A stretch of DNA of 64,000 nucleotides, from the NCBI RefSeq assembly GCF_008831285.2, contig NC_045151.1, positions 2,911,544 through 2,975,543 of the forward strand, read 5' to 3'. The position numbers and the translations under genes were made by a program. Shown here piece by piece: positions 300 through 6,540 of the stretch (positions are counted from its first letter, which is position 1; the number at the start of each line of letters is the position of its first letter). Below the pieces are notes generated by a model. It was given only the letters and a program-made list of their open reading frames with translations. It was not told the DNA's origin and made no database searches. Origin of the DNA: Nymphaea colorata. Its lineage: Eukaryota; Streptophyta; Magnoliopsida; Nymphaeales; Nymphaeaceae.

Positions 300-778
300 T
301 GTAAGATCATTTGGTGGGCCGACATATGTCTATGAGGAATTTCAGACATTATGGTTGTCTTAACGTAAATATCCGCTTAAGTGATTGCATTTTGGGATAT
401 TACGTCATTTTAGATGGTATGGGGTAATTTTGAAATGTATAGATACCAGTACGCAATTACGGACTCTTTGATGGGCGGAATTCGTAATTGTCCTCATTAT
501 AAAATGGTAGTGGTCCCTAGGGTCGTGCAATGGTTGCCTGAAACATTGGTTTCTAGGGTTTTCCTCTTCCCCATCTGAGAGAGACCTCAAGCGCGCCGCA
601 AAGACCCTGGAAGATCCTACCGCGATCTACCGTCCAGTTCTTCAGATGGATTCAGGTACGCTTCCTCTTTAAGTTTAAGGTTTTGTTTAATTTAATGATT
701 TAGCATGAGCATGATCCTGTTTTGTTTAGGGCATATACATTTGGTTTTGTGTATGCATGGGAAGGAGAAATCCCAACA
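300..778 (+). repeat. Copia-1 left LTR
   Basis: 479 bp, TG...CA ends, matched by 5720-6197 in the same orientation. It contains a TATA box (498-504) and, downstream of it, the short upstream reading frame and splice donor discussed under the leader intron. Confidence 0.93.
498..504 (+). promoter_or_regulatory. Copia-1 LTR TATA box
   Basis: TATAAAA lies in the left LTR and is repeated unchanged at the matching place of the right LTR. By analogy with other plant LTR promoters, transcription would start about 30 bp downstream, near 530, placing the ATG at 646 in the transcribed leader. Confidence 0.6.
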
Positions 779-780
779 AT

Positions 781-794
781 TGGTATCAGAGCCC
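781..794 (+). other. Copia-1 primer-binding site
   Basis: TGGTATCAGAGCCC, complementary to the 3' end of initiator tRNA-Met, begins two bases after the left LTR. This is the usual primer site of plant copia elements. Confidence 0.9.
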
Positions 795-939
795 ATGTTC
801 TTCATTAAATCGTTGAATTTTTTGATGATTTTTGGTGCGTTCTTCCCTTCCCATTTCGGTTTTCCCCTTTTCTTCGATTCTCTCCGATGTTCTACATCGA
901 AGGATGGAGAGGTTCATGCCTGCTTCCCTGCAACACAAA

Positions 940-1540
940 ATTTGGGGGCGTCGGCGAGTTACTGAAGCCATCGGGCTTCCATTGCAGCCCCAAAATCAAG
1001 CAGAGGAAAGAGGGGCGGTGGCCGGCAGAATAGTCGACGCCCACCGACCTTGACCGGAGGCCGTCGGGCTTCCGTGGAAGGCGTTGGACATTGCAGAAAG
1101 GGGAAACAGGGAGGTGCAAGAGGGGCGACGGTTTCCGGCCGTCTTGGCAGGCGACGGCCGAACACCGCCGCCCTTGCGCGACCCGCCGGCGGCTATCCAC
1201 GACGTTGGGTGGCCTGCCGGCGGCTTCTTCGTCGCTGTTTCAGCCGCCCGACCATCAAAAAAAAAAAAAAAGGGTAAATCTGAAAACGGGTCAAATACCA
1301 GTTGTTTCTGCTGGTTTCCGGCTGGCGTCGGCCCGCCATCGCGGCGGGCGACCGCCAACAGCTCTGGCAGCACCCGCCGGCGCCCACCCAAGGCCCCCGG
1401 AGGTCTGCCGGAGGTGAATCTGCCGTTCACTGCCGTTCGACGTCAGGAAGGCGAACGGCGGTTTCGGTCGAGTGGAGACGACGCTCGGGCGGTCGAGCTG
1501 GGTTGGACCGGGTCGGTCTTAACAGACCCGATCCGGATCC
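940..1540 (+). other. GC-rich leader segment of Copia-1
   Basis: About 600 bp of markedly GC-rich sequence in an otherwise AT-rich element, broken by a 13-base A-run near 1260. Several overlapping open frames on both strands are what high GC produces by chance; none shows a known domain. It sits inside the predicted leader intron. It may be captured host sequence, but I recognise nothing in it. Confidence 0.5.
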
Positions 1541-1557
1541 ATAAGTTTTTAAAAAAA

Positions 1558-2085
1558 AAAAACCTCGAACCGGTTCATTCGGTTTCAGATCGATTCAATC
1601 TGATTCAGAACCGATTCGGTCCGATTCAGACCGTTTCGGACCTTTTGGGGACCGATTCAGATCTTTTCTAGACCGGTTCAGTTGTTTTTGAGACCGGTTC
1701 GGACCTTTAAAACCCGATTCAGACCATTTTGGGACCGGTTCATTCAATTTTAGAACCGATTCAGATACTTTTCAGAACGGTTCAGTTGTTTTCAGACCGG
1801 TTCAGTTGATTTTCAGACCGATTCAGGGCATTTCAGACCGGTTCATTCAGTTTTGGAACCGATTTAAGTCATTTTCAAACCGGTTCAGTGGGATTCGAAA
1901 CCGATACAGTCTATTTTTGACCGGTTCGTCTAATTTTTAGACTGGTTCAGCCCTATTTAGGGGCATGTGGGTGTTCTAGTTGCGGTTTAAGAACGATAAG
2001 GGTCACTTTAAGGCCGATTCAGTGGTTCTTGACCCTCTTAAGCACTATTATGGTACCGGTTCATAATATTTTGGACTTTTTTGGG
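1558..2085 (+). repeat. Degenerate array of ACCGGTTCA / ACCGATTCA motifs in the Copia-1 leader
   Basis: About twenty copies of a motif close to GACCGGTTCAGT or GACCGATTCAGA, separated by T-rich spacers and repeating about every 22-30 bp. The copies have diverged, which shows an old tandem array. ACCGGT is palindromic, so the core reads alike on both strands. Confidence 0.8.
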
Positions 2086-2680
2086 CCTGTTTCATTAACC
2101 ATTTGTTTTTGGGTTTAATGTAGGGAAAGTTTTATATGTAATTTTAATTCATGTATCATGTTTTGCATGTTATTAATTTGTGGGTGTACTTAGATGAATG
2201 TTTGGAATATGAATTTGAACTTTGGCCATGTCTATTGTTTGAAATGAGTACGTTTGTACTTTATGTTGCCAAAGTGACCTTTGTTGTACGAATTTGCTTG
2301 TTTTGAATATTAGATGATAATATACTTGATCCATGCGGGTAATAATCAACCCAAAGGAGGATTATTGCTTGGTCAGGTTTAAGTATACAGGGCAATGAAT
2401 ATGTGATAATTTTTCAGGTTTCCATGTGAATAGCGAGTCAATCCAAAGATAGGCTTGTTGTTTGATAGTGTTAATTATCTATATTCATTGTTGACCAAGA
2501 ATACCACTTGCAGTTAGTATTTCAATCCAAAGATTGGATATTAACGTTGCACCGGTACCTTGTGATGGAATTTAAGCCATTGTATTTAAATTCATTTATA
2601 TTTGTTATTTCATTTTTGTACATGTTTTGATTGTGAGCATGTTTGGTATTTTTGTTTTTTGTACAGTGAGTTCTGCTTCC

Positions 2681-3679
2681 ATGATATCTGCAAATTTGAG
2701 TACTGTTCCTGAGTTAAATGGTTTGAATTTTAAGGACTGGAAAGAAACTGTTATGATTGTTCTGGGTTGTATGGATCTAGACCTTGCATTTAGGGAGTTG
2801 TGCCCACCTCATCCAACAGATCAAAGTTTTCATGAGGATAAGCGGTACTTTGAACGGTGGGAACGCTCAAACCGCATGTGTCTAATGATCATGAAGAGAT
2901 CAATCCCAGAAAATTTTCGGGACTCTATTACTGAAAAGGCTAGTGCCAAGGCGTTCCTTGAAGAGATTTAAAAATGTTTTGCTAAAAATGAAAAGGCTGA
3001 AACAAGCACTCTTTTGAGTAAACTTGTGACGCTGAGGTATAAAGGCAAGGGGAACATATGGGAGCACATTATGGAAATGTCTCATCTTGTTTCAAAATTA
3101 CAGTCACTAGGTCTGAGGTTACCTGAAGACTTTATAGTGCATAAGGTTCTTCTTTCTGTTCCACCACAGTTTGGATAATTTGAAGTTAGTTATAACTGTC
3201 AGAAGGAGAAATAGACTCTTAATGAGCTCATTTCGCACTGTGTGGAAGAAGAGGAGAGATTGAAGCATGATAGGATAGAAAGTGCTCACTTGGCTACTAC
3301 GCCTAAAAATAAGAAAAGGAAGGCTATTAAGGAAGTTGCAGTTGATCATGCATCCATGAAGAAACAAAAGAAGCATAAGGAAGGCAAATCAAGCTGCTTC
3401 TTTTGCAATGATGAAGGTCATATGAAGAAGGATTGTACTAAATATCACGCATGTCATTAAAAAAAAGGAACGATTCTTACTTTGGTTTGTCCTGAGGTTA
3501 ATTTAATTTCAGTACCAAGGCACTTATGGGTAGATTCGGTTGCTACTACTCACTTAAGTGTTTCTGTGCAGGGCTGTCTAAATTGTCGGACGCCAATTGA
3601 TGCTGAAAGATTCATCTATGAGGGCGATGACATGAAAGCGAAGATTGAAGTCATAGCAGATTTTTTGAGTTATTGTTAA
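2681..3679 (+). pseudogene. Copia-1 gag and protease region, broken
   Basis: One reading frame runs from the ATG at 2681 through gag, a CCHC zinc knuckle (CFFCNDEGHMKKDC, about 3397-3438) and the start of the protease (LWVDS..T, about 3524). It is interrupted by in-frame stops at 2969, about 3176, about 3211 and 3458. The N-terminal part (LNGLNFKDWKE) matches the copia gag pattern in which a Trp-containing motif opens the domain. The usual protease DSGA is changed to DSVA. Gag would form the particle and bind RNA, and protease would cut the polyprotein; neither can be made intact. Confidence 0.85.
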
Positions 3680-5325
3680 AGACTGGTTGTTATTTGAATT
3701 TGATAGAAACTTATGTAATACCGCCTTTTAGACGGAATTTGGTTGTTATTTCCTTACTGAACAAATTTGGTTATTATTGTTCATTTGGAAGAAATAAATT
3801 TAAGTTGTTTCTGTACTCAAATTTCATTGCCACCAGTTCTTTGTCTAGTAGCGATAACCTTTATTTGTTTGATACAGTTGCTTCATATAATGAAACCTTG
3901 CATGTTACATTTAGTGGTACTAAAAGAAAATTAGCCAAAGAGAATTCAGCTATGTTATGGCATTGGCGCTTAGGACATATCTTTGAAAAGAGAATATAAA
4001 GGCTTATGTCAAAAGGATTCTTAAGTCCCTTGATTTTGCAGACTTTAATGTTTGCATTGAATGCATAAAGGGAAAATGAGCAAACATTATGGGTTATAAG
4101 TTTTATAATCCATCCAGTAAGTCTTTCTTTGAAAAGGAAAATGCCCATTTCTTTGAGGATATTGAGTTTGAGGAGGTGATCAAGTTAGAAGCATTACCTT
4201 TGAAGAGGGACCTGAGTCCACTCTATTCAGAAGAAGGCAATGATGTCGATCTCTGTACTGAATAACAAACTCAACAACCTCAAGAAAATTAAGTAGAGGT
4301 GTCACTAAGGAAATCCATATATGGACTAAAGCAAGTTTTCCAGTCATTACAAACTTCATCAAGTTATAGTTTCATTTGGTTTCGAAACTAATATGGTTGA
4401 TGAATGAGTATACCAAAACTTTAGTGGGGCAAATTTATCTTTCTGGTTTTATATGTCGATGATATATTCTTGGCAAGTAATGATGTGAGCATATTGCATG
4501 AAACTAAGATTTTTTGTCAACAAAGTTTCACATGAAGGATCTTGGTTGTGCATCTTTTGTATTGGGGATCCAAATATTTCGAGATCGTTCTCGGGGTATT
4601 CTTGGATTATCATAAAAGGCCTACATTGATAAGGTGCTTCAGCGATATGACATGAATGATTGTAAACCATGAAAGACTCCAGTTGTTAAAGGAGACAAGT
4701 TTAGTCTCAAACAGTGCCCTAAAAGTAAAATTAAATCTAAAAAAATGAAAAGGATTCCCTATTTGTCTGTTGTGGGAAGCCTTATGTATGTTCAGGTTTT
4801 TACTCGTTTGGATATTGCATTTATCATTGAAATGTTAAGCAGATACTTAAGTGATCCTGGTATGGATCATTGGGAAGCAGCCAAAAGGGTATTGAGGTAC
4901 TTACAAAAAAGAAAAGGTTTTATGCTCACATACATGAAGTCAGACCAGTGGGAGATCATTGGGTATTCAGATTCTGACTTTGCTGGGTGCCAAGATAATG
5001 GCATTCAATCAGGTTTTGTGATTGCAGAATTTTGTCACGAGGCTGTGCATTATGTATGGTATAGAAAGACCACTAAGGTTGTTGTGTGACAATAATTCAG
5101 CAGTCATGTACTCTTATAACAGCCACAGTTTGTCAAAGTCGAAGCACATCGACATTAAGTTTTTGGGCTTTTAAAGAGGGGATACAGAATGGTGAGGTGT
5201 CTTTAGAGCATATTGGGACAAACTCTATGATTGCAGATCCGCTTACCAAGGTTTTAACACATAAGGTCTTTCACGAACATGCTGTTCATATGGGGGTGTT
5301 ATCCTTGGATGATGTGCTGGTTTAG
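3673..5325 (+). pseudogene. Copia-1 pol remnant: pre-integrase, RT tail and RNase H
   Basis: The gag-pre-integrase motif (LWHWRLGH, about 3955) is followed directly by scrambled sequence. The catalytic core of integrase and the front of reverse transcriptase are absent. The RT active-site motif YVDD survives near 4453. The frame from about 4619 to 5089 carries the RT tail and RNase H start (YLSVVGSLMY, then YSDSDFAG at about 4966). The end (IADPLTK, about 5231) lies in another frame up to 5325. Frameshifts and stops separate all pieces. An internal deletion near 4000-4440 best explains the missing part. Confidence 0.85.
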
Positions 5326-5710
5326 TGGGAGTTTGTATTTTGTTTGCTCTAATGTATGGACACATATTCAGTTTTCTAGAGAATAAAGTTTAAAGTTCTT
5401 TGGTTCCATTCTGTGTTTAGGTTTTGATCTCCATAAGGTTTTAAAGTTGGACCAGTTGAGAATAGACATGTTGTAATCACATTACATGTAATTTTCATGC
5501 TATACATTCATATCAGATCTATGTCATTGATTGTATTAACATTTGTGATCATTGAAGGTTTAGCTAATTTTATTACAGCGAAAGCCGTTTTGGTTCTGTG
5601 TTGATATGGTCATGGACGAGATTGGCGAAAATGACGTTTAATAAGATAACAATTATGAGCTCCTAAGGTTTTGTATAATGTCTGAATGTATAAAGACATA
5701 TTTGGCCCAA

Positions 5711-5719
5711 GTGGGAGAT
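5711..5719 (+). other. Copia-1 polypurine tract
   Basis: GTGGGAGAT directly precedes the right LTR. It is the usual copia-type primer for plus-strand DNA. Confidence 0.8.
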
Positions 5720-6197
5720 TGTAAGATCATTTGGTGGGCCGACATATGTCTATGAGGAATTTCACACATTATGGCTGTCTTAACGTAAATATCCGCTTAA
5801 GTAATTGCATTTTGGGATATTACGTCATTTTAGATGAATGAGGTAATTTTGAAATGTATAGATACCAGTACGCAATTACGGACTCTTTGATGGGCGGAAT
5901 TCGTAATTGTCCTCATTATAAAATGGTAGTGGTCCCTGGAGTCGTGCAATGGTTGCCTGAAACATTGGTTTCTAGGGTTTTCCTCTTCTTCATCTGAGAG
6001 AGACCTCAAGCACGCCGCAAAGACCCTGGAAGATCCTACCGCGATCTACCGTCCAGTTCTTCAGATGGATTCAGGTACGCTTCCGCTTTAAGTTTAAGGT
6101 TTTGTTTAATTCAATGGTTTAGCATGAGCATGATCCTATTTTGTTTAGGGCATATACATTTGGTTTTGTGTATGCATGGGAATGAAAAATCCTAACA
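5720..6197 (+). repeat. Copia-1 right LTR
   Basis: 478 bp, same orientation as 300-778 and about 96 percent identical by eye, including the TATA box and splice donor. Confidence 0.93.
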
Positions 6198-6540
6198 CGG
6201 AGTGCATGCGTCGAGGTTAAGTCTGAGGAAGATCGTAACTTGCTTTTTGTCTGCTAAGCTCAGGACTTGTGTACCGTGTTATTGATGCGATGGATAGGAA
6301 TGAAAATATTGCGCAGATTCTGAGGGTGGCCGATGAAGACGGTAGTTTTGTGGCTGCTGTCTCGATGGTGGATGGCAGCGATGTGCCACTGTTGGAGAGA
6401 GCTGAAGTTGGGGATAGAAGAGATGACGCTTCTTAACAGATTAGGATATACTGTGTTGTGTCGCATATCCTGTTCGTGATGCTGTTCATCCATATAGTTG
6501 TTGTTTTGGGGAATTCTGTTCCAGGTTTTTGATGCTCAGC
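6198..6540 (+). other. Continuation of the ORF relic broken by Copia-1; possible LINE 3' tail
   Basis: Starts with the right-hand target repeat CGGAG. The frame of the left relic would continue for about 18 codons. A second open stretch runs at about 6272-6435. The final part (T-rich, ending in ATGTAAATAAA) looks like a LINE 3' end. No domain is certain. Confidence 0.3.

Follow-up and report, generated by a model that had tools for sequence, protein, structure and literature searches.

It is an open question how long terminal repeat (LTR) elements avoid using a single RNA as message and template alike, and one possible answer is suggested by a copia-type element of Nymphaea colorata. The element lies at the beginning of a 64,000-nucleotide stretch (contig NC_045151.1, positions 2,911,544 to 2,975,543; hereafter, the window), and all features described here are on the forward strand of this stretch. 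Between the 5' LTR and gag, conserved signals indicate that positions 656-2666 (2,011 nucleotides) are probably a leader intron of the spliceosomal kind, in a family of copia-type LTR retrotransposons that is now apparently Gag-only. A leader intron had been proposed in a preliminary description of the locus, and this reading is supported by the retention of donor, acceptor, and phase in most of the relatives examined.

Under the proposed mechanism, RNA would be initiated in the LTR, downstream of a TATA-like box (TATAAAA, 498-504) and presumably near position 530. Splicing would join the LTR exon ATGGATTCAG to gag, so that the first long frame would begin with MDSVSSASM, and the resulting message would be devoid of the variable leader with its 31 ATGs and also of the primer site. 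Only the unspliced RNA would retain the primer site and could be reverse transcribed from there. One promoter would, in this manner, supply two RNA pools, one for translation and one for replication. The spliced RNA would lose the primer site because the predicted intron coordinates include positions 781-792; that there would be two separate RNAs, with message and template strictly split, is a proposal resting on this logic.

Predicted splice signals in the window copy

Exon 1 is predicted to end in the coding bases ATGGATTCAG (646-655, with the ATG at 646-648), which lie inside the LTR and are directly followed by a predicted 5' splice site, GTACGC (656-661). At the opposite end, a T-rich tract leads into a predicted 3' splice site, TACAG (2637-2666), and joining position 655 to position 2667 yields MDSVSSASMISANLSTVPELNGLNFKDWK, in which the LTR ATG reads in frame through MDSVSSASM into gag. 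The primer binding site, TGGTATCAGAGC (781-792), which we take to be of the initiator tRNA-Met type, lies 2 nucleotides past the LTR end, within the predicted intron. The 3' LTR contains its own copy of the ATG and donor (6065-6080). The positions of these signals, the preserved gag frame, the presence of the donor in both LTRs, and the predicted removal of the primer site had all been given in the preliminary description and were reproduced. Two of its details stood in part. An ATG and coding bases are indeed present in the LTR, but the ten coding bases said to follow the ATG include it; the donor, described as near-ideal, is good (6 of 8 matches to AG/GTAAGT) but not outstanding, given that seven GT sites in 301-2666, the LTR donor included, reach the same level.

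The predicted intron has the features of the U2 type, namely, GT...AG ends and a polypyrimidine tract, and the T content of 656-900 and 2101-2666 (42%) fits plant introns. There are 34 ATGs between positions 530 and 2681, of which 31 are intronic, and the unspliced RNA would therefore be poorly suited to gag translation if ribosomes simply scan. The expectation that copia gag usually begins close to the primer site, also part of the preliminary description, holds only partly: leaders of grape Noble elements measure 269 to 695 bp in the excerpted source (PMC2576258). Signals in one sequence are weak evidence alone, given that an in-phase open ATG with [CA]AGGT[AG] within 40 nucleotides arose in 124 of 5,000 sequences made by dinucleotide shuffling of 530-780; accordingly, the weight of the argument rests on conservation.

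Conservation among relatives

Relatives were sought in the window's own assembly (407.8 Mb). Of 259 candidates from a DNA search with the gag side, 40 were scored, and the 20 top-scoring copies other than the window's own were compared over the region from LTR to gag. An LTR match was present in 19 of these 20 stretches, the exception being L075. The LTR ATG and the joining phase are kept in 19 of 19 copies, the donor GT in 18 of 19, and the acceptor AG in 20 of 20. The preliminary description had pointed to donor, acceptor, and phase as the properties to be sought in relatives, and within this one genome, most relatives examined keep all three. In three copies (L064, L065, and L071), the phase is kept at the join, yet a gag stop follows shortly after. 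The predicted intron is between 1,434 and 2,258 nucleotides long in 19 relatives; the middle of the leader (901-1550) is hypervariable, positions 901-1250 aligning with the relatives as patches of 73 to 89% identity or finding no match, and gag is 95 to 98% identical. Some of the 20 copies are close duplicates (L064 to L066, on C10). Four near-alike copies, L064 to L067, are found within ~130 kb (C10:3469500-3601520), perhaps partly as a result of segmental duplication.

To place the exon-donor motif in its LTR context, 43 alignments of 5' and 3' LTRs were used, with six duplicate or own loci dropped and pieces shorter than 200 nucleotides left out. Mismatches to the window are rare in 646-655 (1.9%) and 656-661 (2.3%), compared with 7.7% in 530-645, ~10% in 662-778, and 4.3% in U3; the TATA-like box is at 2.0%. 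Among the 16 more diverged LTRs, 646-661 is one of the 4 lowest of 418 intervals, three of these being overlapping intervals of the same site.

Genome-wide, CAGGTACG followed 95 to 125 nucleotides on by the exact primer site occurs at 108 places, compared with 0 for a reversed-pattern control and ~3 expected by chance (6,035 x 31 / 65,536, the primer site alone being present 6,035 times and its control 16 times). An in-phase ATG precedes the donor at 101 of the 108 places, with ~2 expected at random, the places being related copies. These positions were paired with gag by comparing 100 of the 108 donor places, those listed, with 113 of 150 gag hits; the 37 gag hits outside this test belong to the group with 36 to 40% identity, except for two short hits. 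Forty-three of the 100 listed donor places are located no more than 4 kb upstream of a gag hit, forming 44 pairings with gag identity of 59 to 100%, 42 of them at distances of 1.4 to 2.3 kb and two at more than 3 kb. For example, a gag copy of 59% identity (C6:23896770) has a donor and an in-phase ATG at C6:23899006-23899134. A looser pattern (ATGG..CAGGT..primer site) is found at 115 places, with 0 in the control, and adds four gag pairs with 69 to 96% gag identity among the matches listed (100 of 115). The other 57 of the 100 listed donor-primer-site places have no compared gag hit within 4 kb and perhaps represent shorter or other families. Spliced retrocopies were sought with the junction pattern at up to 3 mismatches, and 0 were present in the genome; a DNA copy of the junction would have proved splicing directly, but its absence is neutral, being expected both without splicing and with a spliced RNA that is not open to priming.

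On the acceptor side, 30 loci were aligned, of which two without an anchor were dropped; together with the window, itself one of the loci, this gave 29 rows, 28 of them distinct. The AG is kept in 28 of the 29 rows (the window counted twice). The length relative to the window is changed in 18 of the 29 rows within 2637-2666 and in 0 within 2667-2680, that is, directly after the predicted junction. Minority letters make up 1.69, 1.45, and 2.52% at the three codon positions of the spliced frame, the third position being the most variable, a weak hint that the protein is under selection.

Parts of the same layout are found in more remote relatives. L085 (gag 73%, LTR 81% identity) has 15 of 15 bases of the exon-donor motif and keeps the acceptor AG, and L084 (gag 83%, LTR 76%) has 14 of the 15 bases. 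Before gag of L086 (52% identity), TTTTGTTTCTTGCGTAG is followed across the candidate junction by TTAATATTGAT, with the phase as in the window, and part of the L086 leader aligns with the window leader at 67%. In L087 (gag 39%; family frame of 807 codons), the corresponding boundary reads TTTTTTGTCGTCTGCAG/TGCCTGG, again with the phase as in the window; no primer site was found in the ~740 nucleotides upstream. In both L086 and L087, a T-rich tract and a TAG or CAG stand before gag. A candidate acceptor in one phase precedes gag in three families, those of L086 and L087 being represented by one copy each. The L087 leader also contains the words GACCGGTTC and GGGACC, similar to the imperfect repeats around GACCGGTTCA in the window leader (1560-2000; repeat family D2).

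Alternatives to a functional leader intron

The alternative that survives best is that there is no splicing: gag would be translated from the unspliced RNA, starting at the ATG at 2639 or at 2681 and reached by shunting or internal entry, and the LTR motif would be kept for a promoter or packaging role. We regard this as unlikely, even though some of the acceptor-side data favor it. The rival start codon (2639-2641) is upstream of the acceptor and in the gag frame in the window copy; an in-frame ATG is present in 2630-2680 upstream of Met9, the codon at 2681, in 25 of the 29 rows; 14 of the 18 rows with changed length in 2637-2666 differ by a multiple of three; and Met9 is present in the acceptor-alignment rows. 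The upstream ATGs and the multiple-of-three changes weigh against an intron, for the stretch might be translated from a start at 2639 on the unspliced RNA. Shunting in plant pararetroviruses is the topic of PMC5902531, as its excerpt indicates. However, ribosomes would face 34 ATGs between 530 and 2681, and a promoter role would not predict an ATG and donor in one phase at 101 of the 108 places. Moreover, L086 lacks Met9, and its gag frame carries no ATG from the last upstream stop to gag; L084 reads ACG where the window has the ATG at 2639.

Less probable still is a reading that accepts the intron but regards it as minor or accidental, with the LTR donor used occasionally, also into downstream host genes, and the element not dependent on it. 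A precedent exists in tapeworms, where solo-LTR transcripts of a terminal-repeat retrotransposon in miniature (TRIM) are spliced to host genes, and where the authors, in the excerpt, allow for a chance donor (PMC4558846); furthermore, GGTA, kept at 26 of 30 LTR loci (the window's two counted), is missing at the other four. An accidental donor, however, needs neither an in-phase ATG nor a conserved acceptor right before gag. In ten LTR pairs (Kimura two-parameter [K2P] distance, 0.032 to 0.064), the exact motif is present in at least one LTR of every pair. The three 5' LTRs with an altered donor motif belong to the three oldest of the ten pairs and their 3' LTRs are intact, which fits the decay expected after insertion. 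One 3' LTR (L027) reads GTATGC. That functionless signals arose once by chance and were then inherited by common descent is very improbable: the shuffle frequency given above and the origin of every row from one genome would allow it, but 646-661 is more conserved than its neighbors, the exact motif persists at 81% LTR identity, and the acceptor phase is unchanged at 52% and 39% gag identity.

Several further observations weigh against the leader intron. The middle of the leader (901-1550) is GC-rich (62.5%), unlike typical plant introns. The donor GT is lost in L074, which has AT instead; the acceptor AG is lost in one of the 29 rows, and it is lost in L084. Across the 43 LTR alignments, the 16-nucleotide interval from 646 ranks 33rd of 464, other LTR parts being equally conserved, and when L084 and L085 are the only LTRs considered, 19 of 418 intervals are equally low. 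In the most remote relatives, no donor, primer site, or LTR was found in 2.5 kb of L086; L087, for which a donor was likewise not found, carries an in-frame ATG located 34 bases ahead of the point where its CAG ends. None of the 42 gag hits of the 36 to 42% group lies within 6 kb of the 72 unpaired donor places listed, and one member of this group (C1:4846714) has no exact primer site within 5 kb upstream on its own strand among the matches listed (100 of 6,035, covering C1 to 8.85 Mb). Finally, these are related copies of a single genome, and their conservation is therefore not independent.

The element and comparable systems

The 5' LTR (300-778, 479 bp; TG...CA, with ends TGTAAG/CCAACA) is repeated as the 3' LTR at 5720-6197, with 97% identity in both repeat families reported and a K2P distance of 0.037 (14 transitions and 3 transversions over 478 aligned letters). 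The target-site duplication is CGGAA (295-299), and its 3' copy, CGGAG (6198-6202), has one mismatch. The first part of gag, the predicted second exon (2667-2968, with the internal Met at 2681), runs to a TAA stop at 2969 in the window copy, and a Pfam search of this piece gave no match. The remaining gag lies in broken frames (2972-3460) and includes a copia-type gag domain and a zinc knuckle (PF14223, E 1.8e-10, and PF00098, E 7.4e-6, both over their cut-offs). Among 30 loci, gag is open for 336 codons from 2669 in six, with earlier stops in the rest. In the pol remnants (3649-5322), only PF13976 and PF25597 were matched, each below its curated cut-off; across the seven stop-free pieces of the element, pre-integrase and SH3-like matches were sub-threshold only, and no Pfam match to an integrase core or a reverse transcriptase was obtained. 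RNase H is presumably also among the pol remnants, although Pfam gave none. In L082 and L083, the 2.3 kb from ~3,400 to 5,719 align end to end with the window at 93 to 94%, and, judging by this alignment, a deletion of the integrase core and reverse transcriptase is common to all three copies examined.

The two TG...CA LTRs, the 5-bp target duplication with its one mismatch, the adjacent primer site, and the copia-type gag with a zinc knuckle are those of Ty1/copia. Integrase, reverse transcriptase, and RNase H in a working state were not found, and the window element is therefore classed as a copia deletion derivative that is not autonomous. The family is apparently Gag-only and presumably requires pol from elsewhere.

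In foamy viruses and in human T-cell leukemia and bovine leukemia viruses, R contains the major splice donor, which precedes the primer site; spliced messages lack this site as a result, and gag is translated from the unspliced RNA. The donor of the window element lies in the LTR and also precedes the primer site, its placement in R depending on the RNA ends; unlike in those viruses, gag itself would need the splice and would take its start codon from the LTR. The excerpt of PMC7828637 describes spliced messages for pol and env, together with a major splice donor.

Among plant elements, for which the cited papers were likewise available as excerpts, the closest comparison is BARE1 of barley, a Copia element in which translated and copied RNAs are separated by promoter and cap, two promoters being reported, and a 104-nucleotide intron near the end of gag gives a Gag-only spliced RNA (PMC3735527). 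BARE1 resembles the window family in keeping the RNA for translation apart from that for copying and in having a spliced RNA for Gag, but its intron, as described there, does not cover the primer site and there is no start codon in the LTR. EVD/ATCOPIA93 of Arabidopsis, another Copia, produces shGAG, a spliced and better translated Gag message, alongside the unspliced RNA (PMC8892269); early polyadenylation after gag is coupled to this splicing (PMC8892269, PMC12786077), and the splice lies after gag, with no leader intron mentioned in the excerpts. According to a 2025 review, plant LTR elements as a rule lack introns, Ogre and EVD being the notable exceptions given (PMC12786077). Ogre (Ty3/gypsy) has a partially spliced intron, which differs from the one predicted here in lying between gag-protease and pol (PMC6317226), and in sunflower Tyran and Varan, splicing occurs within the element (PMC7730604). 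TR-GAG elements have two LTRs around a gag frame and no working pol, an arrangement that the window family may share, given the six of 30 loci open for 336 codons and the pol deletion common to the three copies examined; in the window copy, however, gag is broken and pol remnants are left. No leader intron is mentioned in the excerpt on TR-GAG (PMC9784723). The excerpts on BARE1, EVD, Ogre, Tyran, and Varan describe no intron that begins in the LTR, spans the primer site, and provides the start of gag, and a search of open-license papers found none for plant copia elements; none appears in the excerpt of PMC9097378 or in PMC3059260, the text of which contains neither "intron" nor "splic". PMC6264596 proved to be an unrelated paper.

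If the intron is real, its removal together with the primer site would be a simpler way of separating message from template than the two promoters and capping of BARE. It would also explain the long, freely varying leaders and how a Gag-only family could go on making Gag, and gag annotations of such elements could lack the N-terminus. More tentatively, and with a probability that we place somewhat below even, there may be a copia lineage whose gag start codon belongs to the LTR and whose Gag is made only from spliced RNA lacking the primer site, a single splicing step then deciding between messenger and genome as mutually exclusive RNAs. This layout would be old, given the acceptor phase shared at 39 to 52% gag identity, and every solo LTR would combine a promoter, a start codon, and a donor, that is, a ready first exon for host genes.

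Relatives were also sought in viral contigs, where seven pattern matches were obtained and none was confirmed. A separate observation concerns C1:2202381-2205177, where six primer-site motifs lie on one strand exactly 557 bases apart, resembling a tandem array of a small retroelement.

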